Shown: piece by piece, positions 4,909 through 41,090 of the stretch | How the letters are laid out: the number at the start of each line of letters is the position of its first letter | Position numbering within the stretch: position 1 is the first letter of the stretch | The notes under the pieces: model-generated | What the model was told of the DNA's origin: nothing | The model's database searches: none | The model's input: only the letters and a program-made list of their open reading frames with translations | Program-made: the position numbers and the translations under genes | Assembly: GCA_021904315.1 (NCBI GenBank) | Contig: CM038910.1 | Coordinates: forward strand, 13,206,001 to 13,270,000 | Reading direction: 5' to 3' | Length of the DNA stretch: 64,000 nt | Source of the DNA: Sphagnum magellanicum | Taxonomy: Eukaryota; Streptophyta; Sphagnopsida; Sphagnales; Sphagnaceae

Positions 4909-5227
4909 TTAAAGTTTTGTTTGAGTCCCCAAATTCAGATTTGTTAACTATTGTTCTTCTATGAGTGTCCAGCTTGCTATATACAATTCTTGAGCCTTGA
5001 GTTTGGTTAGAGTTTCATCAATTTGAACATTCCCTAGTTGGTGTTTATAGTTTATTTTAAGATATATTTTAGCCTTTAAAATAACTATTGGTTCAAATCT
5101 ATTTGTAGTTTCTCCCTTTATTGAAATAAATTTTGTATTATTCCTTTTTATACTATAATTTTGGACTTTAATATTTGTGTTGATAGATTTTGTGGTCTCT
5201 ATAAATTGAAATGCTTTTGGAAAACAA

Positions 5228-7319: not shown

Positions 7320-7324
7320 TAACT

Positions 7325-10075: not shown

Positions 10076-10099
10076 TCAAATGGCACACCTAAAGGAAAA

Positions 10100-17560: not shown

Positions 17561-17574
17561 GATGAACATCCTCC

Positions 17575-17868
17575 TTGCCCGTCGAGATTTTTTTTTTCAC
17601 CTCCTCTTTGCCCCGAAATTCTCTACCTCCCCCCTCCTACCTACCCCCTCCTACCGACCACCTACCAAGCCCACCCCCCCTCCTACCTCCACCCTCCTAC
17701 CTACCACCTGCTAACCCCACCCCCCCTCACTCCATCGCCACAGCTCCAGAGACCTCGAGGGGCTGTGGAGCGGGAGCTGGAGCTATGGCTGTGGAGCGGG
17801 AGTTGGAGTGGCTGGAGTTGGAGCTGGACTGGTTAGAGTTGGAGTGGGACCCACGTGCCCACGAAAAG
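17575..17868 (+). other. Low-complexity CT/GGAG-rich stretch, possible upstream exon
   Basis: A pyrimidine-rich block (about 17580-17735, 'cccccctcctac' type) is followed by a 'ggagttggag' rich block and then by a strong splice-donor-like site, AAAAG|GTAAGA at about 17868. The next good acceptor on this strand is 'tttgtttag|GG' at about 19661, just before the ATG of the C2H2-like gene. The block may therefore be that gene's first, possibly untranslated, exon, with the whole fold-back array lying in its intron. The ORF's own frame (phase 0) does not join in frame to the downstream ATG frame, which favours an untranslated role. This is inference. Confidence 0.35.
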
Positions 17869-17916
17869 GTAAGATGCTTATGTTTTTTTTTTTTTGTTTT
17901 TTTGTTTGTTTTGTTT

Positions 17917-19540: not shown

Positions 19541-19543
19541 AAG

Positions 19544-19575
19544 AACCCTAAACCGTAAACCGTAAACCGTAAACC
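19544..19575 (+). repeat. Telomere-like CCCTAAA/CCGTAAA run
   Basis: One CCCTAAA is followed by three CCGTAAA units, which are one-base variants of the plant telomere repeat, at the edge of the fold-back array. It is too short for a telomere relic by itself. Such motifs also occur as telo-boxes in plant promoters. Confidence 0.7.
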
Positions 19576-19675
19576 TTCTACCCCATCCTCAATATTTTTC
19601 TTGCTTATGGTTTAGTTCATTAGAATTAACATTTAACAATAACTAGTGGTCTTTTGTTTAGGGTTGGAGGTTGTA

Positions 19676-21342
19676 ATGGGTAGGAGAAGAAGAATAAGGA
19701 AAAACGGTGGTGGTGAGCTGGAAGTCAATAAGCAAGATGTTGTTGCGTCAAATGAGGCGATTCCTCCAAGTGTTGTTATGTCAGATGAGGTGATTTTTCT
19801 GCCATATGTTGCTGGAGGAGATGAGGGAGTTGTTGAGTCACATGTTGCTGCATTAAATGCAATAATTGTGGAGCAAAATATTGCTACATCAGATGCGGCA
19901 ATTACTCAGCAAAATGTTACTGCATCAAATGTGACAATTGGTACATCAGATGCGGGAATTGCTCAGCAAAATATTATTGCATCAAATGCGGGAATTGTTC
20001 AGCAAAATGTTGCTGCATCAGATGCGGCAACTGCTCAGCAAAATGTTGCTGCATTAGATGAAATAATTGATGACCAAAGTGTTGTTACATCAAATGAAAT
20101 AACTAGTGACCAAGGTGTTTTTGCATTAGATCAGGAAATTGGTGAGCAAAATGGTGCTCTATCACAATTGAAACACAAGGATAACATTGGTATATATTGT
20201 TTTAGAATTTGTGGACATTAGATTAAATACAGATTAATAAAATTGTACAAGTTTCTTGAAGTTTAATTATATCCGCAATTTCCATCATTTGTTGGAAGGT
20301 GCGGAAATTTTTTTGTCAAATTTTTTCTATTACAATAATTTAGAATAGTTCATGTTTATAGGAGTAGTATGTGAATCTATGATTTTATGTTTTGCAATAC
20401 TTGCATTTTGTTTTTTGAACTTTCATTTTTGGGTTTAGGTTCGGGATTAGAAACTGAGCAAGCTTCTCTGCCACTTGCATTTCTTTGTCCACTTAATTTA
20501 GCTCGGAAGGACAAGGAATGGACGAAGGTTGGGTCGAAATGGAAGTGCGAAGTTGGCACTTGCACTGTCGCATACTGTGCCAAATGGTTGTTGACCAAGC
20601 ATTTTAAGGAGGTGCATGGCTTGGTGGCAGCAAAGTCCAAACCTGGGAGACCTTCAACTTCTGCGAAAGGTCCTCGACATCAAGACCATGCCAAGATGAA
20701 CGCTCGCATTTTGGGAAATGTGATGGTTGTGCAAAGGAGGAATGATCAGAAAGTTGCTAGTTGTACTTGTGCCAAAGTAGAACGCAAGTGGAATCACTTG
20801 GTAGCTCTTGCAAAAGAGTGTCCACCACTCCTAAAACCACCTTTGGTCAGATTAGCTTCAGAGCCATTGTTGAAGGTGTTGGGCCTTAATGCCTGGGGCA
20901 TGGGTAGTGTGTTTCGAGATGCAACATCGCGGATGGAGAAGGATGAAGATTTACAAGGGATGATCCAATCCACCTGTTATGTATATGCACGACAATTCAA
21001 GACGGCATGGGATGTCAAAAATTGGGATCGAGAATCCAATAAAACAAGTCGGACAAAACAGTTGGTGGATGTTTTAGATTTTCATGAATCTAGAATGATT
21101 CATGGAAGGTAAGAAATAATAATAAGCAATGTTTATTGTTTTTTTATTGTATTTCATCCAAGGTGTGTTACGATTTAATTTGGTGATTTTTGGGTGTTTA
21201 TAGGGTTCATGACCAAACAAAGGTCCAATTTGTTGCAAATGCAGTTCAGGTTGAGATGCAACGCCGCCATTTTTACACTGCTCATCATGCAGCAGTTGCA
21301 TACCGAGCTAAACACGGGATTATGGATACTAATATGGGTTAG
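19676..21342 (+). CDS. C2H2 zinc-finger-like protein with 12-residue repeats, unknown role
   Basis: Three exons (19676-20189, 20439-21108, 21204-21342) join in frame with phases 1 and 2 and GT-AG borders, giving about 440 residues. The N-terminus is basic (MGRRRRIRKNGG). Residues about 68-160 form imperfect 12-residue repeats of the type SDAGIAQQNVAA, acidic and Gln-rich, matching a 36-bp DNA repeat. Exon 2 encodes 'CEVGTCTVAYCAKWLLTKHFKEVHG', with Cys and His spaced like a C2H2 finger, then a basic region (KSKPGRPSTSAKGPR) and an alpha-rich C-terminus ending 'YRAKHGIMDTNMG'. I do not recognise the family. Nucleic-acid binding is suggested by the finger and basic patches. It could be a host gene or a transposon-borne DNA-binding protein. 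All three exons are open, so it may be functional. Confidence 0.65.
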
Positions 21343-21760
21343 GGTTTCATTTTATATAATTAGTAAGGTTTTGTAGCCCTTTTATTTTTTGGACTACCCA
21401 ATTTTGAACTTCAATCCTTTGATATGTTATAGAGATCCAATGTTTTTTTTTCATTGGGTTCTCTAGTAATTTTCCATGCACCCATTTTTGTACATCTTTT
21501 ATTAATATAATAGTATCTTTTACTCACACTTGTTTGATGTGTATCTGGTTAATCATATATGTCTTCTTTGTCATAATTTTGTTAGTACTTGAGATGTAAG
21601 AATCAAACCAAAGATCAAAATGAACATTATACAATACTTACATCTAAGTTAATAGGACTCACATCACTTGAAGACTTTAAAAATAATCCACACATTTTAA
21701 ACATATAATACCCACATCATTTTCTATTATGAACTCCATAAGACCATTTTTTAATATGCA

Positions 21761-22070
21761 ATATCTGCATATAAGTCCAAAAATAGCCACAGGCATTTTG
21801 CATTAATTGTAATACCCACATATAAGTCCCATAATAGGCACTGGCCTTTTACATTCCTTGCAATACCCGCATATGAGTCCCATAATAGCCGCTGGCATTT
21901 TGCATTCCTTGCAATACTCGCATATAGGGCACAAATAATCGTTGACATTCTTCATTCGTTACAATACCCGCATATAGTCTCCATAATAGCCGCTAGTTTT
22001 TTTTGGCATCTCTTACAATACCCGCATATAAGTCCCATAATAGTTGTTGGTTTTACATTCATTGTAAAAC
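21761..22070 (+). repeat. 51-bp tandem repeat, about six copies
   Basis: The word 'c(g/a)catatAAG/gag' recurs at 21768-21770, 21819, 21870, 21921, 21971 and 22025, giving spacings of 51, 51, 51, 50 and 54 bp. The consensus runs 'gcaatacccgcatataagtcccataatagccgctgg' plus 'cattttgcattcctt'. Its core 'tgcaataccc' is the reverse complement of 'gggtattgca', the core of the 80-bp repeats beside the MULE gene, so these arrays may share an origin. Confidence 0.85.
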
Positions 22071-23559
22071 TTACATTTTGTCATAAGATTAATTTAGAAT
22101 AATATTTGATTTAGGTATATAAAAAGACATAATTTTGGTACCCAGACCACTTTTGAAATGACATTACATGCGAGTATTGCATTTAGGGTTTAGGGTTTTC
22201 ACATATGGTTTCCTTCAATCACCTATGTATTATTTTAGTATGATCTTGCAAATATGTATTACATTTTTTTGCATATAAAATTCCCCCTATAATGCATTGT
22301 AGATTTATTTTATTTACTATTAATTTGTAAAAAAACTATTAATTAATTTAGGGTTTCCCAAACTCTAAATTTGAATCATATTCCAATAGTATATATTTAT
22401 AACAATTATATGGAAAAATGTGCTTTCTTTTTGATAAATTTTTTTAGTTCAAATTAAAAATGTTATAACACAATAAGGATTAGACATTAAACTATCATAA
22501 ATGCTTATTAGGCTTACGTGGCCTAGGCTAGTATATTACCTATATGACTAGTAGGTTTACTTAATAAATTCAATCACCTTCAATACTTACATAGACCATC
22601 TAAGATATTAACTTAGAAGGCTTACATTAATGAATAAATTACATAATAGGCCTATATTAAGAAAGTAGCCTATCAATTAATTAATTAGGTTACTTAACAA
22701 ATAACTTACTAACCTATTACTCATGTTTAGGTTAGTTTGTTTAGTTTGATCAATGTCCACACTTTAGTCAATTTAACAACCTTAGGTTTGAGCTTTTGTT
22801 GAAATTAATAATTTGTCAAGGTTATAAATTCTTGGTTTTTTTTTATGAACACTATTGTGTTTTTTGGATAGTCAAGTCATCTTTCAACTTCTAAAAGTGT
22901 TGAAAACATTACATAACAACTTGGCCCTCACAAAGCTTTTAAAACCCACACAAACTTTAGCATGACGTCTAAGAGCTTATGAACATTTTCATACCTAACT
23001 ATTAATACGTAACCATAGGTTTATATATATATTACTATAAATAAAAAAGAAAATATTATATGTATTGAAATGGTTCAACAGTATAATTCCATAATATCAT
23101 TATTTATATATTAGGTGTTATAAATAATAATATATTTGGACCAATATTTAAACCAATATTATACATCATAAAAAATAAAGTTTACATAAGGACTTGTGTT
23201 ATATATCTATAAAATATAAAATAATTTTGACCCACTATATGAATATTTTAACCAAGAAATTATTTACTATATATCATAAAAGTATAAATTAAAATTTCAA
23301 TTAAACATAGGATTAATATATGAGAGAGATCATTTTTATTATTATGTGAAACAAAAAAGAAGAAAGTAGAAAATTACGTGCTTTGAATTATTTTTAAACA
23401 TAATTTAAAATCTTGTTAAATTAAAGACTTTATATTTATGTTTTTAGTATGAATATACAACTTTAAAAGGGGAAAAAAAAAATGAACATCTTTGAAAAAT
23501 ATTTAAGTTTGAACTTTTTATTTTTTGATCTTGACAAACTTTGTATTGCATTTAGGGTT
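22071..23559. other. Very AT-rich intergenic DNA
   Basis: No gene, RNA or clear repeat array was seen. The stretch is strongly AT-rich, with many TTAATTAAT and TATATA words. Confidence 0.5.
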
Positions 23560-24720
23560 GGGGTTTTCACATAAGGTTTGTTTTTTACCTTTGTGTGATA
23601 ACTCTAACCTAATTTCACAATCTCTTTGAGGAAGATATAAAATGAAATTGGATTGTTTCACATATGTCTTAACCCTAAAATTTTCCCCCTAATTTAATAT
23701 AAAGTATTTATGATAATTAATGAATTATCAACAAAATTTGTCATATATTGAAATAATTAATAGACCATTATTTCAGATAACTTAGATGATTAATTATCAA
23801 GAATCAGATAATCATTTATTTATTTAAAATAATTAACTAATCATTTGGCTTAAATTTATTTACTTGAAAATAAAAAGTTGGATTTAATCAGATTAATTAA
23901 TTTGATATTTGATTGATTAACTTTAGTATATTTTTGTTTTAATAAGTTATTGAAATCACTATTTAAGATAATTATTCCATGTTATAGATTGCAAGTTCAA
24001 CTTTTTCATGAAAAGTTTTTACACCAAAATAAGCTTGATCACAATTGTCATTGTACTATTTGTTCCACAAACAATAGAACCTTTTTTTAAATTCATGAAA
24101 AAAAATAAGAATCATGGATTCCTAATCAATAACCCCAACCTCCATACACACCTTTGTTAGCATATGATTTTGAAATTAACTAATTATTTTAGAGTGACCC
24201 AAAATGCAGGTATTGCATTTAGGGTAAGATCTTCATTTAAAGAAGGCTTAAACCCCACATGCGTATTTTTTGTGTGACCCAAAGTGCAGGTATTACATTT
24301 AAGGTAGGATCTTCGTATAAAGATGCTTAAACCCACATGTGTACTTTCGAAATGGCCCAAAATGCAGGTATTGCATTTAGGGTAAGGTTTTTTCAAAATG
24401 ACTTTGCGTCTGCATATTGTGTTTAGGGCTAAGTCTTCACTTAAAGGTATCCAAACCATTTAGATGGTTTTTTTTTTGAAACGTGTGGGTATTGCATTTA
24501 GGTTTGTTTTTCATTTAAACTTGCAATACCCGAACTTACCTTTACTAACTGGAATGTTGGGGTTTCATTGTAATACCTACATCCGTACTTACCTTTACAA
24601 ACTAGAATTTTGGGGCATGATTGCAATACTTGCACTTGTACTTACTTTTTACCAATTGGGATTTTGGGGCCTAGTTACAATACTTGCATCTAACACTAAT
24701 ATTATCATTATCCTTTTGTT
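23560..24720 (+). repeat. Left copy of about 1.1-kb direct repeat flanking the MULE gene
   Basis: This segment matches 28700-29705 in order and orientation. Both have 'acctttgtgtgat...ctctaacct/ctccaactt', 'gaagatataaaatg', 'ttcacatatgt...aaccctaaaattttccccc', then an 80-bp tandem array, then 'tttagggctaagtcttca', 'ccaaaccatttagatgg', 'gaaacgtg' and a 'ggaattttggggc' block. In this copy the array (units at 24191, 24271 and 24349) has about three units. The copies are diverged but clearly homologous. Confidence 0.75.
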
Positions 24721-24892
24721 TTTTCATTTCACATTTTTTGTGCTTATTACTTGGAAACAATAATAACCTTTGTGCCATATTAGACTTCATGTGTGTGTTG
24801 AATACATGATGTTCAAAGAATTTGGGTATGATTTCCTCCATACAAAATTGATTCTAAAAGAAAATTTTTAGTGCTAATGGCAACAATCTTGA

Positions 24893-27635
24893 TTAGTAAT
24901 TGAAACATTTATTCATGACATCGTTTAGTTGTACATTTGTGTGATTGAGCATTGTTTCATACCAATCTTTGAGCCGTTTGACACTATTTCCCAATCCATC
25001 TTCTACACAACGTAAAACCAATTTTGGGTGTGAAATTGCATTTGCCTTTGTGAGGTGTATGTTACGAATATTACATGCTAATACTCTCATGTGTGAGGTG
25101 GCATGTTCACAAAGTGTCACATCGCCTTCTTTACATTCATTTGTGATCTTTTGCATTGTAGTGACCAATTGTGTAAGAGCCCTTTCCATTGGGGTTGATG
25201 AATTTATTGTTTCATTAGACCCTACAATGGCACCCATAGGGAGATCATTTTGCTCCATGTTCATGAGCCCATCAAATTTCATGATCCCATCATCACCTTC
25301 AAGATGATCATCTTTGTCATCATCACTGGACTCCATATCATCTGGAATATGTTGCGAGTCTGCAAACATTTGACCCAACCCTCCACGATGTGATCTATAC
25401 CATGTTCCACAGTAATGAATGATATCCTTTTGAGAAATGTCTATGCATGTGAGAATGACCTTAATTTGGTGTTTACACATGTTCCCTCGTAATGCTCATT
25501 CGCATGTGCAACAAAACATTTCGGTGAATGGGAATTTCACCGTGTAAATAACATTGGGAAGGCGTTGGCTCCGTACGACCCAAGCTCCATCACGCTCAAG
25601 GGTTGGTTAGTACACATGGCTGAATGGAATAAGGGTTGTTTTTTCCACACTTCGTGTAGTAATGGCCTCCATAACCTTGTTTTTTATGAAACCCCTCTTT
25701 TTCATTTCCAATGTGTGCATGTAATGGTGTGCAATGGTTGTTGTTAATCACCACACCAACCAGTTAATCCTATGCCCTCTAAAGCCTTTTGTGTCAAGAG
25801 CAAGCCAACGTTTCAATGCACCATGATATGATTCAATGCTCGCTTGGGTGTCTTGGTTGGAATGGGGCACTCTTCGAACACCCACCATCCATAGTTTTAC
25901 AAACATAAACACAATACATAAGGATGAATAACATTATACAAAATAATTTTGAATGCTGAACCATGATAAATATTATCACTTACCAAATTGATGGTAATAA
26001 GTCTAGAAATAGTTTGTCCACGCATCACAAGGCCTATGTTTATGAAGGCTTTTTCTCACAGCAACCCTCCCACGCTCTTTGAAGTCGTCAATTGTTTCTC
26101 CATGATTAATGGACATGTACATCACATCATGAAGGTCTTGGAGGATTCCACCCCACACTTCCACATCTCTGATTTTTTCAATACCACGTAGGCGCCATGC
26201 TTTGAGAACATGCCAACAACAAAGGTAGATGGGAACCTTGTCCATACCCCATACGACCCTAATAAGGACACATATGCAATAAAATCTCCATGAGTGGATG
26301 GGGTTAGTATAACATTAAATGCATTTGAAGTAATCAAGAATTTTATGAAAGATATTAAAAAACATTTAAGGAAATAAACACAAAGTCAATACTAGGTATA
26401 GAACTAACCGTAATGCCTTCAATTCTTGAAGTGCATCATCAATGAGAAAACATGATGGTTTCCAATGTGGCATGGTGGTAACATATTCTCTTTTAATGGT
26501 TTCAACCATTCGATCAAATCTTGCATTGTTTGCCTACTTGTAATGATCCAGGCTAAAGGGACACCCGTGCGATGATCATCAAATCCCATCGAGGTGAATA
26601 GATGGAATTTCATGTCATTTGTGCCAAATGTTGCATCCATAGAAATGGCACCATTATGACCATATGATAACATGGACTCACATTGAGTTGGTGTTTGAAT
26701 ACCTATGGTGAATGGGATTTGAGTTCCGTTCATTTCACCAACATCTTGGAAAAAGAACACATCTTTTGGATGTTAGAGAGCCCAAGATTGAATTGAAATT
26801 GCAGGGTTAGTGTGTAAATGTTAACTCCCTTTCTTATGTTTCCGATCCAAATATGTAATGTCTTGAAGTTGAATGAAATCATTTTGTGTCATGCTTTGAC
26901 CCGCATTCACACGTTCCCACCAAATTGCTTTATGCTTGTCATATATTTGTTTGGTCATATAACCTAAGCTTAGTTGGGCCCATATGTGGTCTTTCAATGC
27001 TTGTGACATGTGTGGAGCATAATAAGACATACAAGAAATGGACTCTGGGTCATGCTCACCATGTGCGAATGACCCATCAATTCGTGTATGGGCCTTATGA
27101 TAAATTGTGATTTTAGCCACATCAGGTCGTGTGTATAGACGTTTGATTGAGAATGACGTTAGGCATCCTCGTTTAATAGATCGAATGTGGGTTGAATTTT
27201 CTCGATAGTCCTCTGGTCCATATCTGCATTGATACCTAAACCAAAAAACTTTCAAAACGTAAATGATTACATCTTTGGTATATGAATTAAAGAAATTAAA
27301 AAGGTTAATGCCATAAATGTTTACCATGTATGCCCAAGGTGGTTTTTGATAGTTGGTTGTTTGACATCCGTTTGGCTTGGAAAGTTTTTGTAAACATTCC
27401 ATTCCATAGGGGTGCTCGTATCCCCTTGTTCACCTTCCAAGAATTCCGAGATGCGAGCATATGGAACATAAGCAAATTGAATGGTCACTTTATTTTGCCC
27501 TCCATGTCGTATCCCAGATGTCCACACCAAGTCTTTGTTTGAAAAAGAGGACTTGGTGGGGTTTTGGACATGAATGGAATGGGACTTTGGAACCCTTCCC
27601 ATGATTGAATGAAGTAGGACAAATTCCTGCATCAA
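24893..27635 (-). pseudogene. MULE-type transposase (MULE domain + SWIM zinc finger), decayed
   Basis: Minus-strand exons read in order. The N-terminal part lies at 27635-27321 and 27235-26821. The MULE DDE core is at 26760-26411 ('SMDATFGTNDMKFHLF', 'GVPLAWIITSRQTMQDLIEWL', then IDDALQEL). A continuation at 26276-26003 has 'VPIYLCCWHVLKAWRLRG', joined across an intron with the split codon CG|G. A segment near 25880-25740 gives 'RVPHSNQDTQASIESYHGALKRW', and the SWIM-like end at 25530-24893 has 'CKHQIKVIL' then an acidic tail. A TAG at 26003-26005 interrupts the frame before the next exon, so I call it a pseudogene. The same layout occurs in domesticated FAR1/MULE-derived plant proteins. The flanking repeats suggest a transposon. 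Confidence 0.8.
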
Positions 27636-27639
27636 GAGA

Positions 27640-28560
27640 ATTTATAATTCTCTAAACATTCATCATTGAACAAAAACCCAAAATGCAATACATACATGGC
27701 TCCTTTGAAATCAATGTTGTGACTTGGAATTCCCATTATAACACCCATATCATGATATAAAAAACCTACTATTCCAATGTACATAACGTACAATATTTGC
27801 ATTATGAACCCATATACTAAAACAAACTTTGGCAATACCCACATTGAGCTATTAAACCTCCCATCATTGAAAATTTTCTCATATGCAATACCCATATTGT
27901 ACCTTAAACCCATAATGTCTGAAAACCCCATGTAGTAATACCCACATAATGATAGTTAATGCACATTGTTTGAGAGGTACAAAATGCAATACCTACCTTA
28001 AGCCAAAAAACCCACATTAGTTGTGAGTAGTCCATGCATTATTCGCATATGGGTATGAAAAAATAAACTATAAAGAAATATTGAATATGAAATATCCATG
28101 TAAAAGTATAAAACCTTTATCTATGCTTGTATACTTAATGAAACTTGATGCCCTTTCTATATCCAACAACTAGGAAATGAAAAGAGTTTGAATTATGAAA
28201 ATATAAACAAAAAAACAAAAGGAGTAATAAAAGACAAATGCATACCTTTAAGAATAAAAGATGACAACGTTTCACCAAAGTTTATAGTTCCAATTGAAAA
28301 CGCAACCCTAGAAAATCATAATTCATACAATGGGTTAGAAAATATTAAACTTTAGGAACTATGGAACATATGGAAATAAAGGAAATTCAAATTATGGTAT
28401 AGATTTAAACAAGTGAAAAGATAAAAAATCAATACAATGAGCAAAATTTAAAGTATGAACGTTAGGTTCTGAAATATATGAACCAAATTCTTATACACTA
28501 AATAATAAAGCATAACCTTAAAAATCCAAATGATATTTTGCCATAAGCCTTATTACAACC
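27640..28560. other. MULE-adjacent AT-rich region with 'tgcaataccc' words
   Basis: The region contains scattered 'tgcaatacccacat' words (about 27680-28030), the reverse complement of the 'gggtattgca' core in the flanking 80-bp arrays. The arrays are therefore represented in inverted orientation inside the putative element. No coding exon is evident beyond the short N-terminal region already assigned. Confidence 0.45.
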
Positions 28561-28570
28561 CTAATTATAC

Positions 28571-30293
28571 AAACCCTAACAAAAAAAAGTCTTAATGATA
28601 TATGTCCTAAACCCAAAAAACTATACAAACTATACAAATTATATAATGCAAAATACGTTAATCTTTAAAAACAATCAAATAAATTTCATACAAAACCAAA
28701 AAAGAAGATATGTCTTTTACCTTTGTGTGATCTCTCCAACTTAATTTTTTCCACTCTTTTTGAAAAAGATATAGAATACAATTGTATTACTTCACATATG
28801 TGTAAACCCTAAAATTTTTCCCCCAAATTTCGCCTACTTTAGATTAATTACTATACATTTGTGAAAAACTTATTAATTAATTTATGTGTCTCAACCCTAA
28901 ACCTAATGGTTAAGTTAGTAGGGTATGTAATTAATAGAGTAGTTAGGTTAGTAGGGTAGGTGGTTAGTACAATAGCTAGGTCAATAGGATAACTAGTTAT
29001 TAGGGTAGCTGTGTCAGTAGGGGATAATAAATAAGGTACCAAGGTTGGTGCAATACTTATGAGGGTAGGAAAGTGAGCAGGGTAGCTATTCGGAGTGACC
29101 CCAAATGCAGGTATTGCATTTAGGGTGGGATCTTCATATAAAGAACCTTAAACCCCACATGCATATTTTCGGAGTGACCCTAAATGCAGGTATTGCATTT
29201 AGGGTAAGATCTTCATATAAAGAAAGCTTAAACCCTACATGCGTCCTTTCGGAGTGACCCAAAGTGCAGGTATTGCATTTAGGGTAAGATCTTCATATAA
29301 AGAAAGCTTAAACCCTACATGCGTCCTTTCGGAGTGACCCAAAGTGCAGGTATTACATTTAGGGTAAGATCTTCATATAAAGAAAGCTTAAACCCTACAT
29401 GCGTCCTTTCGGAGTGACCCAAAGTGCAGGTATTGCATTTAGGGTTGGGTTATTTCAATTTTGTATATGCATATTGTGTTTAGGGCTAGGTCTTCATTTA
29501 AGGGTATCCAAACCATTTAGATGGGTTTTTTTGAAACGTGGGTATTACATTTAGGTTTGTTTTTTCATTTCAACTTGAAATACCCAAACTTATACTTACC
29601 TTTACCAACGAGAATTTTGGGGTTTCGTTGCAATACCTACACCCCTACTTATTTTACCAACTGGAATTTTGGGGCATAATTTCAATATTTGCACTTGTAC
29701 TTACTTTTACCAAACCTTAACAAAAAAAAGTCTTAGTGATATATGCCCTAAACCTAAAAAATTATACAAGCTATACAAATCATATAATGCAAAATAAAAA
29801 AATTTGAAAGAACATAGGAAAAAAATTAAAAACCAAAATTCAAAGGTTTTAAACTATAAATATTTATTACCTGAAAGAAAATACGTTAATCTTTAAAAAT
29901 AATCAAATAAATTTCATATAAAACCAAAATATAAGATATGTCTTTTATTTTTGTGTGATTTTTCCAACCTAATTTTTCCACTCTTTTTGAAGAAGATATA
30001 AAATGCAATTGTACTACTTCACATATGTGTAAACCCTAAAATTTTCTCCCCAAATTTAGCCTACTTTAGATTAATTACTATACATTTGTGAAAAACTTAT
30101 TAATTAATTTGTGTCTCAACCCTAAACCTAATGGTTAAGTTAGTAGGGTATGTAATTAATAGAGTAGCTAGGTTAGTAAGGTAGGTGGTTAGTACAATAG
30201 CTAGGTCAATAGGATAACTAGTTATTAAATTAGCTGTGTCACTAGGTTGGTGTAATACTTATGAGGGTAGGAAAGTGAGCAGGGTAGCTATGT
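28571..30293 (+). repeat. Tandem duplication, about 1.14-1.2-kb period
   Basis: The block 28571-29090 ('aaaccctaacaaaaaaaagtctta' through 'gtgagcagggtagctat') recurs at 29712-30290 with substitutions and small indels. Starts are 1141 bp apart and ends 1201 bp apart. The first unit carries the 80-bp array at 29092-29450; the second lacks it. Both units contain degenerate 'gttagtagggtag' strings about 20 bp long, which explain a Thr- and Tyr-rich minus-strand ORF at 28851-29042. Confidence 0.8.
29092..29450 (+). repeat. 80-bp tandem repeat array
   Basis: The word 'ggagtgaccc' starts at 29092, 29171, 29251, 29331 and 29411, giving spacings of 79, 80, 80 and 80 bp. The unit runs 'gtgcaggtattgcatttagggtaagatcttcatataaagaaagcttaaaccctacatgcg'. 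The middle units are nearly identical, so the amplification is recent. A shorter version of the same array lies at 24191-24430. Confidence 0.92.
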
Positions 30294-30327
30294 GTGAGGT
30301 CAGGTCTAGGAAAAACAGCCAAGAACC

Positions 30328-30351
30328 AAAAAAAAAAAAAAAAAAAAAAAA
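30328..30351 (+). repeat. 24-nt poly-A tract
   Basis: An uninterrupted run of 24 A residues sits at the junction between the end of the 1.2-kb duplication and a distinctly more GC-rich segment. It may mark a boundary of a retroposed or inserted sequence. Confidence 0.9.
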
Positions 30352-30870
30352 GTACGGTGGTCAGCAGAAAAAAGAAATCGACTGTGATGAGCCCCATCCG
30401 GTGCCGAATGAAAAAACGCAACCCATCCAGTGGATAGAACGGCCAACTGGTGCATTGGTGGCTGTTAATTCATTCTGGCCCAGGGAAAAGGTACCCCAAC
30501 TGCCTGACTCTGTCCACCGTGAACAGACAGCAGAAACTGAGGAGCCGGAGAAGCGTCCTAATGACGCCGCGTTCACAAGGAAGTAGATTTCCTACTTCTG
30601 TCCAGTCAGTCGCGCGTGCCTGCCCGGCCCCCCACCCCCGGCAGCACTCACGTATTGCTGATCCAAAACGGGCTGCCCGCGCCGGCTAAGGTAGAACACA
30701 AAACCGTCACAGACAAACGGACGGACGTAGTGAATTAATACTAGTGGGTAACCCGTGACTACGCCACTCCAGCCACCCCCAACGCTTTGTGCTTTGTAGC
30801 CAGGTTTGGCTAAATCTTTCTTCAGATAATTGCCCACTTTTTCCACATCTTCCTACAAATGATGGCCATT
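30352..30870. other. GC-richer island upstream of the terpene-cyclase gene
   Basis: Base composition shifts sharply from AT-rich to mixed or GC-rich sequence ('cccggccccccacccccggc', 'gcccgcgccggc'). Short overlapping ORFs are open on both strands, but no domain is recognised. It may be the distal promoter, or the left end of a block that arrived together with the HAD-cyclase gene (inference). Confidence 0.4.
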
Positions 30871-31010
30871 TTGGCTACAAACAAAAACATTTTTTTTTTT
30901 AATTTTTTTATTTTGTTTCTTCATTTTTGTTAATTTAAGAGAAGGGGAGAAAAAAACAAATCCAAAAAAAATAAATAAAAAAAGAAGCAAATACGTAGCA
31001 GAATCGGTCT

Positions 31011-31062
31011 CTGCGGCTCATTTCTGGGGGGTTGCAGAATCGGCATCGCAGAGACCGTTAAC
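31011..31062. promoter_or_regulatory. Inverted repeat CGGTCTCTGCG / CGCAGAGACCG
   Basis: Two 11-base arms are perfect reverse complements, about 30 bp apart, and each is preceded by a nearby 'gcagaatcgg' copy. They lie about 200 bp upstream of the TATA box of the HAD-cyclase gene. A dimeric transcription-factor site or a cruciform is possible. No known cis-element is recognised. Confidence 0.6.
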
Positions 31063-31226
31063 GGGTCGGAACGCCCTCAGACAGACGGACTAAGCGAATT
31101 TATATATAAGATATAAGATTCTTTCACTCTGGCAGTAACGATAAGAATTTCCTGAATTCCTGCCACTTTCAAAGAGCTGCCTGTCGACCTGAAATAAACG
31201 AAATGACCAGGCCTCTGCTGCAACAC

Positions 31227-31233
31227 TATATAA
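31227..31233 (+). promoter_or_regulatory. Candidate TATA box of the HAD-cyclase gene
   Basis: TATATAA lies in 'caacactatataacaagcc'. A splice donor-like TGC|GTAAGC follows about 65 bp downstream, and an acceptor 'ttgcag|GCC' precedes the ATG, so a 5'-UTR intron of about 440 bp is likely. An alternative 'tttatatataag' lies at about 31098. Confidence 0.45.
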
Positions 31234-31741
31234 CAAGCCTTTCAGATAGTCAGAAACCAAAAGCCTCTCGTATCGGAACGTGGAAGGGAGCACCTGCGTA
31301 AGCTTTCCTTCCAAATTTGTGCGGTCTACACTTTGATGTTTGCAAACTTTTTTAGGTTATTCAGGTCGACAATGTTTCAATTGATCTTAAATATTAGGAT
31401 CCATGCATGCACTTTCTTTTGCAGCTCGTTATTTGGAAAAAGAAAATTGCTCGATGATCAAAAAATTGTTGTATATATAACCAGCAAGCTGAGCTAGACT
31501 ATTTTCTTTTGTAATTTAGAAGAGGTTTTGCGTAATTTCTGCTTGGGGTTATAACTTATGATCTTTGAGGAGCTCTCGCTGGTCGGAAGAACTTGTCGTA
31601 AATCAGTTCTCCAGCACTGGAATCTTTTTTCTTACATCTGAAATCTGAAGTCGCTTGAACCGGCCTCATTTGCTATAATGTATGTTAATGTTGTTCCGAG
31701 ATTCATGGGTCTTTGTTGTTTGTCAATGGGGTTGCAGGCCA

Positions 31742-34700
31742 ATGGCAATCTCCTCGGTTTATGCACGTTTGCAGACGCCTGATGGATGTGGTTCGACATG
31801 CACAGCGAAAGCAATAATCACGGCAAGCTCGGCACACACGCTCATGGGCACATTTAATCCTGCCTTAAATGCTATGAGAGGGAAAAGTTCGATCCACGAG
31901 TTTTGCGGCATTTCGTGGCAGCTTTATCGGGTATGAACTTGTGTGAACATTGCCTTTCTAATGACCTGAAGATCTTCCTACTTCTCAGCTCGTAAAACCT
32001 TCAGAATGCTGCTTGTCCTTTTGTTTCTCTGCAGTAAGGTTCTTCCGACAAACTAATTGTGCAGGCAAAGCGTTTGCAACCAGAAAGGTGGGTTCGTGCT
32101 GGCGGATCAGTCGGGTCCAGCAAGCAGTTTAAATCCTCCGTCTCGACCTCCGATTCCTCCCTGTCCTCAAAGCCATCCCATAGCTTCTCGAGCTTCCCCG
32201 TTGCATCTTGCAACTCCTCTTTGGCTTCCATAGACAACGAGGTCCCCATCGATCCCAATCCCGACACCTACCGGCCTTCCACCAATTCCCAGTTGTTAAT
32301 ACTCGATCCTTCCATTTCCATCCCGACAGATATCGACCCAGTTCATGCAGGCCAATATTGTGCCACGCTCATCTTCGACCTCGGTGACGTCCTCTTCACT
32401 TGGTCAGCGGAGACGGAATCAGCCATCTCCTCTAACACGCTTCGCAAGATTCTCCGATCCGCGACCTGGTTCGAATATGAGAAAGGTATGTATACCGAGT
32501 CTGAGGCCTTAACACGGGTGGCGGCAGAGTTTGGTGTGGCATATGCGGATGTGAAGCGCGCCATCCAAGGAGCACGTGCTAGTGTCGCACCCAATGAAGA
32601 GCTCGTAGCATTCATCCGTGAACTCAAGTCGCACAGCAAGGATCACGAGGTGAAGATCTTCGGGATGAGCAACATCACCATGCCTGACTGGGAAGTGCTT
32701 CAGACAAAAGGTCGTCCAGAGGATTGGTTATTGTTCGAACGTGTTTTCACGAGTGCGGAAGCAATGGAAAGAAAACCCAACCTGGGATTCTACCAACACG
32801 TCATTCGTGAAATTACTAAATACTCTGACGCGCAACCCAAATCTGAAGTAAAGGGACACAATTTAAATTGGACATTCGACCCGACGAGCACAATCTTTGT
32901 AGACGACAAGCTTGAGAATGTAGTTTCTGCGCGTTCATGCGGCTTACGCGGTTTACAATACACTTCTTTTGAAATTCTTGCACAATCTCTCCGCAACGCA
33001 ATACTCCCACCACTCAGACGAGCGCACAATTGGTTACGAGCGAATGCAAAGAATATGCCGAGCATTACGAACACGGATGTGGTGCTACACGAAAACTTTT
33101 CTCAATTGCTCATACTAGAAGCAACCGGCGAGCGAGACTTGGTGGAATTCGTTGAACACCCCCGGCTATTCAATTTCTTCCAAGACAATTGTGGTGTGGT
33201 AACCACGGAGGACTTCCCTTACGACCTCGACACGACGAGCGTGGGTCTTTCCGTGTGCACGCATGTGGATGCTTTGACGAAACATTCTGTGATGGACGAG
33301 ATGCTCACGTATCGTAATGCGGACGGGATTGCACAAATTTATTTCGACCACAAGAGACCACGCATTGGTGAGCTTTCTCCCTCCGTCTGCTTTCAGATGA
33401 TTTTTGTTTGAGATTTATTTCTGAGTTGTAAAACCTCCGCCCAAATTCTTAGTGTATTTGGAAGAAAGTTTACAAAGAGTAAGAAACCGCGGGCCATTTA
33501 GAAATGCGAGACGCTAAAACCCCCCACGCCCGTCTCCACCTGGAACTCTCTGTCAGAAGCTTGTTTTTCGGCCGTGCATGGTTCTCCATGATTTTTTCAT
33601 TCCGCAGAAAGATGAGGGCAATTTTTTGTATTACAGTAGCTTAGCGAATTCTAAACATGAACTTACCAGTTGTATGACATCATACAGACCACTGGAATAG
33701 ACTCAAACACCAACAAAGTCTGCTTTCTTTTCTATTTAAATAACTTCCACAGTCAAAAAGTCAAACTTTGCATCAGAACCACACAGCTACTGAAATTAGT
33801 GAAATACACAAAGAAATATAAAGCTACTGAAATTATTAATAACTAAAGACATGTAAAACTAGTAGAGTTAGTGAAATACCAAAGAAATGTAAAGCTACCA
33901 AACTTAGTGAACACCAAAGAAATGCAAAGTCCTTGAAAATTGTTGTATACTAATGAAACGGAAAAGCTGTTGCAATTAGTTTTTGCTCAAAATAGAAGGG
34001 TCGAAAACCCTTCTATAGGGCCTTAACAACTGAAGGTTGCAGCACCATTTTTGGCTATCCTCCACCTTGGACCGGCCATACTGGGCACTCCCAAAACCTG
34101 TTGTAATGAAGGTTTTTGTCCTTGGATAATCCACAACTGAGTTACCAGGGTTCCACATTCGTAACCCACTTCCACCTCACACTAATAGGTAACTACCAAT
34201 GTTCGCTGGTTATTGAACTTTGAACCGGGTAACAAGCAGAGTCCGCGCTGGGGCATCAATAAGTGGTTACTATGTAGGTAAGTGTTGGCCACTTGGTGAC
34301 CACTAGGTAGGTAGATGCATGTGGATGGTCCCTACATATCTAACCACTGTGGTTAATTATGGGACTGAATACAATGAAAAAGAGTTTCCTGTTCACATAG
34401 CATCCATGTTGCATGGTGCACAGGTGGGTGCAGACAATTTGGCCTTAAACCATTGTGAAGCAAGTTTGAAAATGCATGTGAGGGTCTATGTGGATTAGCG
34501 TATAGGGTTTAGTGAATAATATTTTTCAAATAATTGGTATATGATTATATCTGTTGTGTCTTTTCTCCACACTGACAAGTATTGTGTATGTAGACCCCAT
34601 TGCTTGCACGAACGTCCTCTCATTCTTCTATGCCCATGGGCGTGGGCATGAACTCCCCCAAGCATTTGCATGGGTGCATGCCACATTGCAACATCGTGCA

Positions 34701-35075
34701 TACCTTGATGGCACATTATATTACTATGGTGGAGATACATTCCTCTTCTTCCTCTCTCGCCTCCTAGAGGTTTCTCCTTCTATTTATGAACACATTGCCC
34801 CGCTCTTCTCCAAACGCATGCTTGAACGTGTTGGCAAGGTCGGTGATGCACTTGCACTTGCAATGCGCATAATTGCTGCATGTACGGTGCATGTGGAGGA
34901 TGCACTAGGGAGTGACATCCAAAAATTGAAGGGGATGCAAGAAGTAGATGGAGGTTGGCCAGTTGGGTGGATTTACAAGTATGACAGTGATGACATCCTA
35001 ATCGGGAACCGTGGCCTAACTACTGCATTGGCTATGAAAGCATTAGAATTGGTGGAAAAGAGTAAAAAGAAATAG
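31742..35075 (+). CDS. HAD-like / class II terpene cyclase fusion (drimane synthase-like)
   Basis: Three exons, 31742-31930, 32065-33367 and 34594-35075, join in frame (phases 0 and 1, GT-AG) to give about 657 residues ending LVEKSKKK. Residues 1-150 are Ser-rich with few acidic residues, resembling an organelle-targeting extension. Residues about 163-370 are HAD-like: 'LIFDLGDVLF' with Asp168 but Gly where the second Asp of DxD is expected, Lys300 in 'ERKPNLGFY', and DDKLE at 343-347. A beta-type cyclase domain follows, with DLDTTS at 450-455, 'YYYGGDTFLFFLSRLL' and 'GNRGLTTALAMKALE'. This order and both motifs match the fungal AstC-type HAD drimane synthases, which cyclise farnesyl diphosphate by class II protonation at DxDTTS while the HAD part acts on the diphosphate. 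I infer a drimenyl or albicanyl diphosphate-type product. Exon 2 is clearly GC-richer than exon 3 and the introns. All exons are open and the motifs intact, so it is probably functional. Confidence 0.85.
33775..33965 (+). repeat. Imperfect repeats in intron 2 of the HAD-cyclase gene
   Basis: The words 'aaagaaatgtaaagctac' and 'ttagtgaaatac' recur about every 45-50 bp, four times, inside the 1226-bp second intron (33368-34593). The intron is AT-rich like the surrounding plant DNA. Confidence 0.6.
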
Positions 35076-37760
35076 CCATTTCAAATCAAGGATTAATTTT
35101 GTGAGTTATTTATGTTGTTTGAATGTGATGATGGAAATCAAGTTGTACTTGCATTCTCAACCATCTTACAATGCACATTATCTTGCATGGCCGCATCATT
35201 CATTAACCTTAAGGAGCAAGGTTTTTTTTTTGGTGATGTAACCAAAATGGCAATGATTCACAAAATAATTTAACCAAATTTAGCTAGGTATTAGATATGA
35301 AAGTAAAAAAAAACAGAATCCTTTTATATTCTTGGCTTCATAATGGAACTTATCATAAAAATCTAGCAATTTGAAAAAATAATTTCAAAATCTGATGAAT
35401 TTGGGTGATTTCATGAAGAATGCTCTGTATAGGTCAAAATCACATTTTCTAGGTCAAAATTTGATGAAAATTCACCAATATAAAAAAAAAACACAAAAAA
35501 TCAATAAAAGAACGATGGTTAGAACCATCCCAGGGGAGACAAAAAGGGGGAGGCCAAAGAAAGGCCAAAAAGATGCACAGCCCAAAAAAAAGGGACAGAA
35601 CTAATCTCTCTCATGTTAAAAAGTTATCTCACCCATGGCCCCTCTTATGTCACCAACATGCAAATCATGAAATCTAATAGTAGTGGGAGGTCTAGAACAA
35701 GCATCACCTACTAATGCAATCTTCTTTTCTATAGTAAAAGCCAAAGCACATTAGAAATCAATACTAACACATTACTTGAAAAATTGAATGCAAAAAGACA
35801 AGGATAAATGACCTTTCGATTGTTTATCATGGAAAATACGAGCACCCTGCTAAGGAGACCATATTTAGCATCCTTAGCACATGTGGGGTGCACATTAGTC
35901 TTTTATTTTTGGTGAAAAATCACCAAAACCCAACACCTTTTTTTTTTTAAAAAATATTTTCTCACAAATGCCCTTTTTTGGAAAAACAATTTGCCTAAAA
36001 GGGACATGAAATTGTTCTTTTGGGGAAGGTGTCACCACACATATGCCTATTAACGACAATTTTAACTGTTCCTTGAAATAAAATTGCAAGTAAGTCAAAT
36101 ATTTTATGCCACCTCTTGATTTCATGTGCACAAAATATTCTTTTATTATAGTTTAATTTGCCATTAGAAACATGTTTAACATTATCAATAATTTATATTC
36201 TTTTATTTATAAATTTTCCCATTAATAGTATCATTGATAATCATATTTGCACCGTGATTTTCCAAGTGTACTTTTCAAAGTTCTTATAGTTGATTGACTA
36301 TCTAGGATAAAACAGCCCATCACCAAACATTTTTCAATATTTTTCTCATTCCTTAACCAAATTGATTAATTTTTGTGTCATTAAACATGCAAATCAAAAA
36401 GTTACAAAAGTTCTTTGAATGTTAGAAGTAAAGGAATCCAAAATAAAGGAGCAATGCATAAAACACAAAAAGAAAATGAGCAATAATTTGTTCCAATTTT
36501 TTTGAAAAAATAGCTTTAAACCCTTTTTTATTCCAACCTCATCATAACTTCTTCATTTTTTGTTGGATTTGAGTGATTTAAAACGTGATGGGTGCACCGA
36601 GGGTTTACAAAACTTTGTAATCTAGAGCCAAAGATGCACTCAAGTTCAAAATCCTAATATGTTTTTACTCACTCATCATCGAACACTGAATTACACTAAA
36701 CACCCCATATCTTGCCCATTTTTTCACCAAATTGAGAGATTTTTGTAGTGTTGGAAGTGCTAAGTGCAAGGCTAAAAAGCTAATGAACAATGTGTGAAGA
36801 TTCAACTTCATTTGAGTTCTTAAATTTTGACCCACAAGCCTATCTACCTTATTCCCCTTTTTTTTTAGTAATGTAGTCCCTTGATTTGTTGTCTTAAACG
36901 TTAGACCATTAGGTTTTAATCCATTTTGGGTGGGGGGAGGAGGGAGGGAAGGGGCTACATTGGGATGATCCTTTTTGTTTATGTTTACAAACTTACTAGC
37001 TTTAAAATGTTGTAAACATTTTAAAGCTAAAACTAATAACAATGTATCATACCACTTTTTATTATCATACATAACTTTAATGTACTCATGATAATGCCAT
37101 GCATCAAAACTTAATTAAACCCTATGTCATGAATTTTTCAAGCCTATTTTGGTTTTGTGAACAACAGGATATACATGACTTGGATTAATGATAAAATGGA
37201 TTAACATGTTGTTGCACATTGATGGCAACAATGTCTTAGAAATCGTTATTTTACTACCCTAGGATAAGAAATAATGTTTAAATATGGCCACTATTTTCAA
37301 AAAATTCAAATATTGAATAAAAAATGGTCAGAAATGAAAAAAACATGGAACAAAATATTTTCATTTCATTTTTTCTCTCACTAAGATGTAAAAATTCACC
37401 ACAAAGAAAGATGTTTTAAATGTTTTAAACTAATTAATGAATGGATTTAAATGGACCAAATGTTCATCAAGTAACATGACTTTTAATGATGATGACCTAC
37501 AAAACTTTTCTTTATTTCAAAAAAGAAGGGGAAAAAATAATATGAAGATAAACAAAAGAAAAAAAATAATGATACAGTTCACAATCAAATGCAAGGCCAA
37601 ATATGCCATGGTTCATTATTTAACACAGTAGATGAGGAATTTCCATGTTCAAGGACAAAGGTAGAAGACATCCTTCACCTACCAACAATAAATGACATAT
37701 TTAAAGTGGTAATGGGTGAAAGGTTCATATTAAGTGGTGGTAGTCGAAAAATAGCCAACC
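35076..37760. other. Intergenic AT-rich region
   Basis: The 3' flank of the HAD-cyclase gene is followed by AT-rich DNA without recognisable exons. A small ORF at 35395-35604 with a lysine-rich end and a minus-strand ORF at 36665-37072 show no domain. No tRNA or other RNA gene was seen. Confidence 0.5.
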
Positions 37761-37765
37761 CCATG

Positions 37766-38679
37766 TGACGCACCCCCAAGCTCTTTAATGGATTCAAATG
37801 TGAGTCCAAACTGAAGATAGTGGAAAAGCAAAGAATCGAGGCACACTCCCTAGCTTGCAACACTTTGAGGGGTAGAAGGGCGTGCTGGAGCTCCGAAATG
37901 GGACTAGGAAAAGTTACAAGCATTAACTACTCACATGAACCTGCACAAAACTAACACAAGGTGGTTAATGCATAATTGGAGCACTTTTGGTGTTAGGATG
38001 TGCCACGGGCAACTTGGACTCACAAGACTCACCACGGCCCGGACTTGGGGGAAGCCACCACCTTCCCCCTTATAGTATATTCTATGTCTTTCCATGAGGC
38101 CCACATCCAAATGGCTTTTTGTCCTAGAACTCCCAAGTGTGAGTCCTGAAATTGCCAAGGTTAGGACTTTCGTGACTTTGGGGCCCCATAACTTTTTGTG
38201 TAAACCTCTAATTGAGATGAAGTCTAAAACAAAGTAATAGCCCTCGTTGAGATCCTTTTCAACAGTATGTCACACGCCACTTGCACCCAAGGAAATTGAG
38301 TCAATTCCTGACTTTTAGTGGTTGGGAGTCAAACTTCCAATTTGACTCTCGGCTTTCTTTTGGCCATAACTTGTGTTTTAGATGTCCAAATGAGTCATGC
38401 AAGCCCATTTTAGACATTTACATTTCAATAGCTTTTCAATGGTATGAAGGATTCCTTGCTCCATTGGGTTTTGACCCTTGTAATCACTCTCTGAACATTC
38501 GGGAGTCCACCAGGACTCCAACTCCCAACATGGGAGTTCACTTGGGAATGTGAAGGTTTTTTCCCTCACACTCTTTTGCACTCCCAAGGGCATGAGAATA
38601 CGACTCTCGAGCTTAATCTTGGCCCACACCCTTGCAAGCCCTTTGCCTTGGTCATGAGCTCAAGGCTAAGGTTGCGACA
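37766..38679 (-). mobile_element. Solo LTR, family A (914 bp) with perfect target duplication
   Basis: Read on the minus strand it starts TGTCGCAACC and ends GGTGCGTCACA. It is flanked by ccatg at 37761-37765 and again at 38680-38684, a perfect 5-bp target-site duplication. It shares all internal landmarks with the LTRs at 1-813 and 15731-16530. There is no internal coding region, so it is a solo LTR. The intact duplication makes it younger than the 15.7-kb copy, and it is the best reference copy of the family in the window. Confidence 0.93.
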
Positions 38680-38684
38680 CCATG

Positions 38685-41090
38685 ATTATTGTTCAACTAA
38701 AGATTATGGAGATTTACAACTTTTGTAACATAACTAAAACTTTTGTCTACAATAAATGGTTAAGGTCGAAAGTAGCATGGACCTTCAAGGCCTTTCATTC
38801 CCCACACATTATTGGCACAAAGTTGTAAAAACCCAATGGCTCATTTATGTAAACAATCATAGATTTCTATCACTATGAAAAGGAAATGATCTTTCAAGTG
38901 GCAATCTTAATAACTCCTTTTCTTTGTTTGGGCTACCTTTAATGCTAGAAAACCATGTGTAAAAAATGCATGGGCCAGAAGATTTGCACAAATGGGATCT
39001 ACAATAATAATGTCTACAAAGGTTTTGAACCCATCTTTAAAAAGGACATTATCAACATGACATTTAAATGTTTAAAGAATGAAAGAAGGAAGAGCATGCA
39101 AATGCTTCTAAACCACATGAAAGCCAATTTCTTATTCAATGCAAAGACATCATTAATGGTGTCATATATCCCGATGTGTTCATTATCATGTGAACATTGT
39201 AGAAATTGATACCCAAAAGATCAGTGGGATGAAATGCAAACACAACAAAGGAGGCTTGTGACTAAGGGATGAATACTCAAAGTTGAATTCGCAAAGAGAT
39301 GGAGAAAAATGTTTATGACAAACAAAACGTCATTTGGATTGTTTGAATTGTGAACTAAGCACTTGAACATGAAAGGATGCGAACTTGATGGATGTTAACA
39401 TCATGTCCAAAGGTTAGTGCAAACATTCTAAAATGGAGTTTTGAAGTCATTTATACATTTACACTTGCACGGAGTGTAAATAAATTTCAATATGGGATTT
39501 ACACTCACACACAATGTAGGTCCCAAACCATTTACACACACAACACTGGTCCAAATGCTATGAAACCAAGCCAATGCACCCCTCCTCCTCAGAACTTTCC
39601 AAAGAGACCAAGAATGCAATCTGAAGCATCCCAGTTCAGTGGATTTCATAAGTACAAACAAAACAAGACAAACAAACAACCTTCCTTCATAGATAGATAT
39701 TACACACTTCTCAAGACTGTGTATTGTATAAGTACAAAGATTTACGTAAATTAAAATTGGAAATGCATAGGTATAACTAATTAAAAACTTATCAACTGCT
39801 TAAAAAGTTTTATCTTCAACTAATTAACTATCCATCAAATGTATACAAAGCTAGCCTACTTGGCAACATTTTAAAAAATCCAACTTATTTTACTTGAAGA
39901 ACTTGGACTTTGTTTTTTTTTTAAAGGTTCCAGGTTTAGTTCTGGTTCTAGCAAAAGCTTAGTTCTAGAGTCTGGATTTTGTGTTGGTTCCATCAAGAAA
40001 TTGAAACTGAACCTCTTGGGTTTGACACTCCAAATTGAGGAATCCACCAATTCTGGTTGTCTACCAATGTTGTGTGGGTAGGGTAGATATGCCCATCACG
40101 TAATTACACCTAATAATTGAGCAGAACAATAGAATAGGGACAGACCGATTAGGGTTTGAGGTATAACCCGATTAGCATTCAAGTTGTACTATGTGACCAA
40201 ACACTTGGTCTAAAACATATATGTTCAAGAATTTTGCCACCCACCATCAGATGATTCTCTTTTGTGTTTGATAATGGGAAAAAATTAACTGTCTTATGCA
40301 CCCATTGTGACCCAGTTGGAATAATACAATGTTTGGAAATGGGGGAAAAAATGGGCCAATTAGGCACCCAATGTGTTTAATTTGGAATAGTGAGTGTTTG
40401 GTGATGGGGAAAAAATTGTGTCACTTGGAGCACCCACTCAGTCCATGAAAAATAACAAGTGTTTGGTTTAGGGTGTAAGTTAACCCAAATAAGAAAAATA
40501 TTCACTCCCATTAAAATAAAGGATTGTTTGGCAATGGAGGTGATCTCATACAATTATAAAGGATTTAGAGTTTAGGCTCCAAATCTAAAATACACAAACA
40601 TAACCTAAAAATTAATATGTAAAATATCAAATGTGGATACCAAATTCAAAAACATTGAAATTTTTTTGGAGTCCTAGTAGTTAGGATGTCAAATAGTTAT
40701 GGTTCTCATAGATTTCAACAAGATGCAACCCATCATAACATGTGCTTTACACCTCCAACTTGCACATCAACTTTAGATATTGATTTAGTTCAGGAGGACT
40801 TTGAAAGTTTCTGTAAACTAATTTCTTTTACATCAATCTAAGAAAGTCATGCACTTTTGAATATCCAAATCCTAACATAATTCTTACAATTTTGGAATAT
40901 ATATAAGTGATTGAATTGTGTATTTCTTGTAGGTCCAAAGTGTACTATGTTAACTTGCTAGAGATTGGGGCCACAAAGCAAAACACTATTGTGATACCAG
41001 CCAATGTACATTGTAGGCAATGAAATGGGATGTTTGATTAACTAGCACCAGAAGGTAAATAACATGCCTATACTTGCACCACAACAAAAA
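38685..41090. other. Intergenic region
   Basis: A plus-strand ORF at 38955-39209 with several Cys residues is not recognised. About 40040-40460 holds loosely repeated 'gtgtttggt...gatggggaaaaaa' strings. No gene is supported. Confidence 0.45.

Follow-up and report, generated by a model that had tools for sequence, protein, structure and literature searches.

The window analysed here is a 64,000-nucleotide stretch of the genome of the peat moss Sphagnum magellanicum (contig CM038910.1, called C4 below, positions 13,206,001 to 13,270,000). It carries a spliced gene on the forward strand in which an N-terminal phosphatase-like HAD domain is fused to a class II terpene cyclase domain. The coordinates of this gene, its two GT-AG introns and its 657-residue product had been proposed in a first-pass annotation made from the DNA letters alone, and a splice-site test near the exon boundaries confirmed all three, with the exons joining into one open frame; an alternative acceptor 6 nt downstream would yield a protein of 655 residues. 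An upstream exon is needed because the first in-frame ATG of exon 2 falls within the HAD domain. Splicing is predicted from the sequence and from conserved boundaries, and gives the following arrangement.

31742..31930, forward strand: exon 1, residues 1-63, rich in Ser, Thr and Ala, with two acidic residues
31931..32064, forward strand: intron 1, GT-AG, 134 nt
32065..33367, forward strand: exon 2, with a Ser-rich stretch (about residues 64-160), the HAD domain and the start of the cyclase domain
32362..32982, forward strand: HAD phosphatase-like domain, about residues 163-369, with D168, G170, S265, N266, K300, D343 and D344
32815..32871, forward strand: 19-residue insert of the plant proteins, residues 314-332
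33223..33237, forward strand: DLDTT class II acid/base motif, D450-T454
33368..34593, forward strand: intron 2, GT-AG, 1226 nt
34594..35075, forward strand: exon 3, the remainder of the cyclase domain plus the stop codon
34983..34991, forward strand: D628-S629-D630, within the loop corresponding to that of the pyrophosphate sensor K451 in AstC

Comparison with solved structures revealed a match over residues 157-649 to AstC, the Aspergillus drim-8-ene-11-yl pyrophosphate synthase (22tz), with an E value of 2.4e-95, and further matches to bacterial drimenol synthases (9mhs and 9m7d; E 7.4e-50 and 4.2e-49). Values this low exclude chance resemblance. The first-pass claim of a HAD domain fused to a class II cyclase domain is borne out by the AstC match, and the motifs on which that claim had been based are all found in the protein: FDLGD (167-171), ERKPN (298-302), DDKLE (343-347) and DLDTTS (450-455). 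No Pfam family matched at E values up to 0.1, including the domains of canonical and microbial-type plant terpene synthases. In the precomputed annotation of the protein database, relatives of the protein are labelled PF28380, and NCBIfam gave four weak HAD-type matches, each under its cut-off. A structure model of exon 2 only, built as a monomer and aligned with 51 relatives, had a mean pLDDT of 78.6, with values above 90 in most ten-residue blocks of the HAD domain and below 50 across the first 96 residues. A Foldseek search with this model returned chains of bacterial drimenol synthase in rows 1-10 (E 4e-19 to 4e-16) and the phosphatase YihX in row 11 (5e-10), while the domain arrangement of the model is unreliable (rmsd of about 18 to AsDMS, the drimenol synthase of Aquimarina spongiae). 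With an N-terminal HAD domain, a class II cyclase beta domain and a DxDTT motif accompanied by the activating Asn and Tyr, the gene can be assigned by its sequence to the HAD-type terpene cyclases (HAD-TC). The description drimane-synthase-like, also from the first-pass annotation, holds for the HAD-type relationship to AstC; it need not extend to a drimane product, since a monocyclofarnesol synthase also belongs to this family (PMC10608071; PMC12001456).

Residues for both predicted activities, mapped to AsDMS and AstC, are conserved in the moss proteins. The nucleophile D168, G170, N266, K300 and the metal ligands D343 and D344 are present in all five Sphagnum copies described below and in 116 of 118 relatives. 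Alanine variants of the six matching AsDMS residues (D43, G45, N139, K171, D195 and D196) abolish dephosphorylation (PMC12365925). AstC is without phosphatase activity (PMC13244436), and its HAD residues are degenerate, reading E13, K15 and N166 in the present alignment; with numbering anchored on D271, E13 agrees with the published residue, and the paper's Asp166 is Asn166 here. Assignment to an AstC-like branch with an inactive HAD domain was considered and rejected, since the catalytic HAD residues are intact in the moss copies, which by their residues would fit the bifunctional, AsDMS-like branch. In the cyclase domain, all five copies have D450, D452, T453, N504 and Y541, the equivalents of AstC D271, D273, T274, N324 and Y361, each of which is required for product formation (PMC13244436). 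The selectivity tetrad, made up of four positions compared between AsDMS and AncC, reads FYYI in the moss copies, AstC and 95 of 118 relatives, YFAF in AsDMS, and FYFA in the albicanol synthase AncC (as reported) and in P0111, a fungal protein with an AncA-type DDRIE motif. At 103 alignment columns where one residue makes up at least 95%, the window protein keeps 99, inside the range of the fungal sequences. The window copy is the only one with D628 and D630; the remaining four carry Gly and Lys at these positions.

A protein search gave 405 hits, of which 120 were listed, and statements about named organisms rest on those 120. Two partial proteins, P0002 (105 members) and P0003 (49 members), are 93-94% identical to the window protein; both run beyond the exon 2 donor into intron 2, at the same donor, and are therefore genomic copies of the Sphagnum cyclase family. 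The other 118 sequences are at most 58% identical and comprise 108 with fungal names, one from the myxobacterium Pendulispora rubella and nine without an organism name; no named plant protein was among the 120. In a quick tree of 123 sequences, the three plant sequences formed a clade (support 100) within a 25-sequence clade (98). In a careful tree of 63 of these sequences, the plant clade (100/100) was nested in the same 25-sequence clade (99/98), whose members are Punctularia, Hymenochaetales, Mycena, Roridomyces, boletes, polypores and the plant sequences, and the plant stem branch had a length of 0.63. A topology that placed the plant outside the other 59 sequences (55 named fungi, three unnamed and one bacterium, with AstC likewise placed outside) was rejected by 34.9 log-likelihood units (p-AU 0.0012 in the approximately unbiased, or AU, test). 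The search and phylogeny that the first-pass annotation had suggested as a check thus yielded fungi as the nearest named relatives and nested the plant sequences in an Agaricomycete clade, supporting its proposal of a microbial, most likely fungal, source. In the best tree the plant sequences stand beside the other 22 of the 25-sequence clade (85/76). Topologies that join the plant to Hymenochaetales (p-AU 0.324) or to Punctularia, of the Corticiales (p-AU 0.176), both pass the AU test and are compatible with a donor from either order.

A separate observation from these trees is that the myxobacterial HAD-type cyclase of P. rubella (P0119) nests inside basidiomycete sequences (100/99), a placement that suggests transfer from a fungus to a bacterium. 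A prokaryote scan with a fungal/plant profile gave 15 matching stretches with no relative among them, and a scan with an AsDMS-led profile gave 39 stretches that included eight bacterial loci, of which AsDMS (L001) was the only one taken into later comparison. One scan of viral contigs gave no relatives of the cyclase.

A whole-genome search with the protein (438,994,042 bases in 31 contigs; match counts in this genome are lower bounds) gave 13 exon matches, which represent at least five copies of the cyclase on contigs C4 and C1.

C4, within 13206001-13270000, forward strand: window copy, exons 31742-35075 of the window
C4, 6.057-6.061 Mb: L018
C4, 6.635-6.638 Mb: L019
C4, 6.663-6.666 Mb: L017
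C1, 7.716-7.719 Mb: L020

The four further copies are 91-96% identical to the window copy, exon by exon, and lie on contigs of 26.7 and 32.4 Mb. The donor and acceptor of intron 2 are identical in all five copies, and those of intron 1 are identical in the window copy, L018 and L019, with L017 keeping the same acceptor. Exon 1 was found in three of the four other copies, whole in L018 and L019 and partial in L017, where its end and donor are lost; L020 gave no match to exon 1 or to the first 260 bases of exon 2. The 19-residue insert is absent from all 118 other sequences; in L018 it is five residues shorter, and the reading frame of this copy continues past the usual stop codon. P0002 and P0003, partial copies from elsewhere, are identical to none of the five. 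The 63 residues of exon 1 look plant-specific and are a possible candidate for a targeting peptide. The N-terminal extension described in the first-pass annotation therefore stands for exon 1, but the Ser-rich stretch that follows this exon has a counterpart ahead of the HAD domain in several fungal proteins of the family. L017 and L019 lie about 28 kb apart, each within a repeated block of roughly 7 kb.

Silent divergence among the copies is small (0.020-0.066 in ten pairs), and the duplications are therefore young. Unique changes, simple counts of codons at which one copy differs and the rest agree, with 77% of sites being non-silent, numbered 15 amino-acid to three silent in the window copy and 30 to 22 in the other four together (L018 3:2, L019 9:8, L017 13:11, L020 5:1). 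Jointly, these four have fewer amino-acid changes than expected under neutrality (one-sided p 0.0015), while for the window copy no departure from neutrality is seen (p 0.82); the difference between it and the other four is suggestive only (Fisher p 0.085). L017, one of the damaged copies, must have come under most of its constraint before the damage arose. Core changes fell on columns with at least 80% one residue among the 118 relatives in seven of 13 cases for the window copy and in four of 18 for the other four together. These counts indicate that the family has been kept by selection and that the window copy drifts or adapts; it is a young and probably drifting duplicate and may be losing or changing function. 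L018 and L019 are the best candidates for a working enzyme.

The gene lies within a segmental duplicate that also holds the remains of a cytochrome P450 gene.

1..39452: segmental duplicate, inverted, from or to about C4:6052955-6080841
8894..10075, reverse strand: cytochrome P450 fragment without about the first 154 residues, a decayed duplicate of the P450 at C4:6067648-6069288

The duplicate is collinear with C4:6.053-6.081 Mb in blocks that are mostly 92-96% identical (85-89% at 15024-17184). Window positions 17185-31117 are without a counterpart at that point of the C4:6.06 Mb segment, and there are smaller gaps, including one at 12695-15023. Identity of the P450 fragment is 85% to a protein of Sphagnum jensenii, 69% to one of S. 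troendelagicum and 48% to pimaradiene oxidase 1 of Calohypnum, the best named match in any other moss genus. The 830 bases that hold the P450 start in the C4:6.06 Mb segment are absent from the window. On the forward strand of that segment the P450 is complete, with 504 residues and one intron, and stands head to head with the L018 cyclase at a distance of about 7.0 kb (6067648 vs 6060680). The nearest P450 gene in this genome has exons with 94% and 90% identity to the S. jensenii protein. The corresponding pair in the window is no longer intact, and its members are separated by 21.7 kb. A search with seven P450 queries detected no P450 within the 100 kb around L017 and L019; for L020, the flanks were examined to 8 kb. 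Because P450s are numerous in the genome (at least 96 exon matches), the pairing hints at a pathway without proving one.

Between the P450 fragment and the cyclase lie remains of a MULE-type transposase (26422-26772, reverse strand; E 1.4e-05, with a score of 25.9 bits that falls short of the 27.6-bit cut-off). Related tandem-repeat stretches occur at 24195-24688 and 28650-30131 of the window and at C1:7720758-7721500, at the end of L020, and this repeat may have taken part in moving cyclase copies. Long tandem repeats with units of mostly 34-65 bases and spurious long open frames occupy 17992-19540. A single-exon coiled-coil plant gene at 49040-50470 (forward strand) is 96% identical to the metagenome protein P0122 and 29% identical to two named plant proteins. 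Rfam and tRNA scans of the window gave no matches.

The best explanation of these findings as a whole, and one we consider very probable, is that the gene encodes a HAD-type class II cyclase-phosphatase which an ancestor of Sphagnum gained from an Agaricomycete fungus and which has since been duplicated. That the nearest named relatives are fungi might instead point to fungal DNA joined to plant DNA by contamination or misassembly, which the first-pass annotation had named as fatal to its proposal. This is ruled out because five copies with common introns sit on two contigs; in addition, the closest fungi are just 58% identical, the partial proteins from elsewhere differ from all five copies, and the locus has a moss P450 and duplicated flanks. 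The P450 and the five copies also back the first-pass view that a plant is the host. Vertical descent of an ancient plant gene, with its loss from almost all plants and a transfer that ran from plant to fungi, would fit the long plant stem branch and the few bryophytes in the sample, but it is very unlikely given the rejection of the plant-outside tree, the span of relatives across many Agaricomycete genera and the lack of named plant proteins among the 120 sequences listed. A donor specifically in or near Hymenochaetales, as suggested by Cho et al. (2025; PMC12001456), is a tentative option: this order is present in the plant's clade and grouping it with the plant passes the AU test, but grouping with Punctularia is allowed as well, the best tree sets the plant beside all 22 other members, and D631 is common to Punctularia and several Mycena sequences but occurs in just one of Hymenochaetales (P0019).

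Several points weigh against the preferred reading of a transferred, duplicated and functional cyclase-phosphatase. The absence of other plants from the search results is weak evidence, as the Sphagnum proteins of PMC12001456, which are in NCBI, were also unlisted. dN/dS among the copies ranges from 0.33 to 1.02, which is modest evidence of constraint, and taken singly only L017 (p 0.011) and L019 (p 0.025) depart from neutral. The 5' end is damaged in two of the five copies (L017 and L020). AstC K451, the pyrophosphate sensor, aligns with residue 630, which is Asp in the window copy. The tetrad cannot separate a monocyclic from a bicyclic product, both of which are made within the family, because P0111, with its AncA-type motif, reads FYFA like AncC. 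For the window copy itself, decay as an incipient pseudogene within the segmental duplicate, with the working genes at C4:6.06 and perhaps C4:6.64 Mb, comes close to an even chance. The neutral-like changes, their concentration at conserved columns, G628D, K630D and the broken P450 partner all favour decay, but no damage is seen in the reading frame, the splice sites or the mapped catalytic residues, the contrast with the other copies is suggestive only, and adaptive change fits the same pattern. A bolder and rather improbable proposal is a hybrid pathway in which the fungal cyclase-phosphatase and the head-to-head moss P450 at C4:6.06 Mb would make a peat-moss-specific sesquiterpenoid, with the window copy retuned by G628D and K630D to another substrate or product.

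Under the preferred reading, the C-terminal domain of the better-kept copies would protonate farnesyl diphosphate via D452, positioned by N504 and Y541, and one or two rings would be closed with D450 as the base. The N-terminal HAD domain, probably that of a partner chain, would then remove phosphate via D168, K300 and a magnesium ion held on D343/D344; the product would be an alcohol or monophosphate of drimane or monocyclofarnesane type. The next step might be carried out by the P450 that lies in divergent orientation next to the C4:6.06 Mb copy. The window copy is a young duplicate; its P450 partner is disrupted, and its own changes suggest that constraint has been lost or activity altered. 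Plants are usually credited with two sets of terpene synthases, canonical and microbial-type; if it works, the HAD-type cyclase would give a single plant genome a third terpene synthase architecture, one derived from a mushroom. Sphagnum would then offer a system in which to study how a plant retains and duplicates a metabolic gene of foreign origin and perhaps connects it to one of its own P450s. A large share of soil carbon is stored in Sphagnum, whose defence chemistry is therefore of wider interest.

MTPSL and canonical plant terpene synthases are encoded in the same Sphagnum genome as the HAD-type cyclase, which is unlike both in its lack of a Pfam match. Canonical terpene synthase exons gave at least six PF01397 matches, four over the cut-off, at three places on contig C3. 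At least 39 matches to PF19086, the domain of microbial-type terpene synthases, were found, three of them at the same places on C3. AstC resembles the moss protein in domain order, in the DxDTT motif, in the N324/Y361 pair and in the tetrad F257/Y446/Y448/I455 (PDB 22TZ; PMC13244436). It differs in its degenerate phosphatase residues and lack of dephosphorylation, where the moss copies keep these residues, and its K314 corresponds to R494 of the moss protein, an Arg also found in the bacterial enzyme. The bifunctional AsDMS (PDB 9MHS and 9M7D) shares residues for both dephosphorylation and cyclisation with the moss protein (PMC12365925; PMC9128629); it differs in the tetrad (YFAF vs FYYI) and is bacterial and more distant.

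The closest precedent is that of Cho et al. (2025; PMC12001456), who described AncA-like HAD-type cyclases in Sphagnum, present as several similar copies, and proposed a mushroom-to-moss transfer; in a literature search with most subscription journals outside its coverage, this was the only source to link Sphagnum to the family. Their AncA orthologue label appears loose, with ACEPAI_7410 (P0006) in the plant's 25-sequence clade and Taiwanofungus P0111, AncA-like by its DDRIE motif, in a separate 12-sequence clade (100/94). The third route to plant terpenes put forward in the first-pass annotation survives as a third architecture in one plant genome, but the proposal that the cyclase passed from fungi to peat moss is already in print. 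The Sphagnum passages and tree legend of that paper give no gene structure, residues, neighbourhood or comparison of copies. Relative to these parts of it, the present analysis adds the anatomy of the gene, five young copies, and intact phosphatase and cyclase residues, together with a divergently oriented, intact P450 near L018 and a window copy that looks unconstrained within a decayed segmental duplicate.

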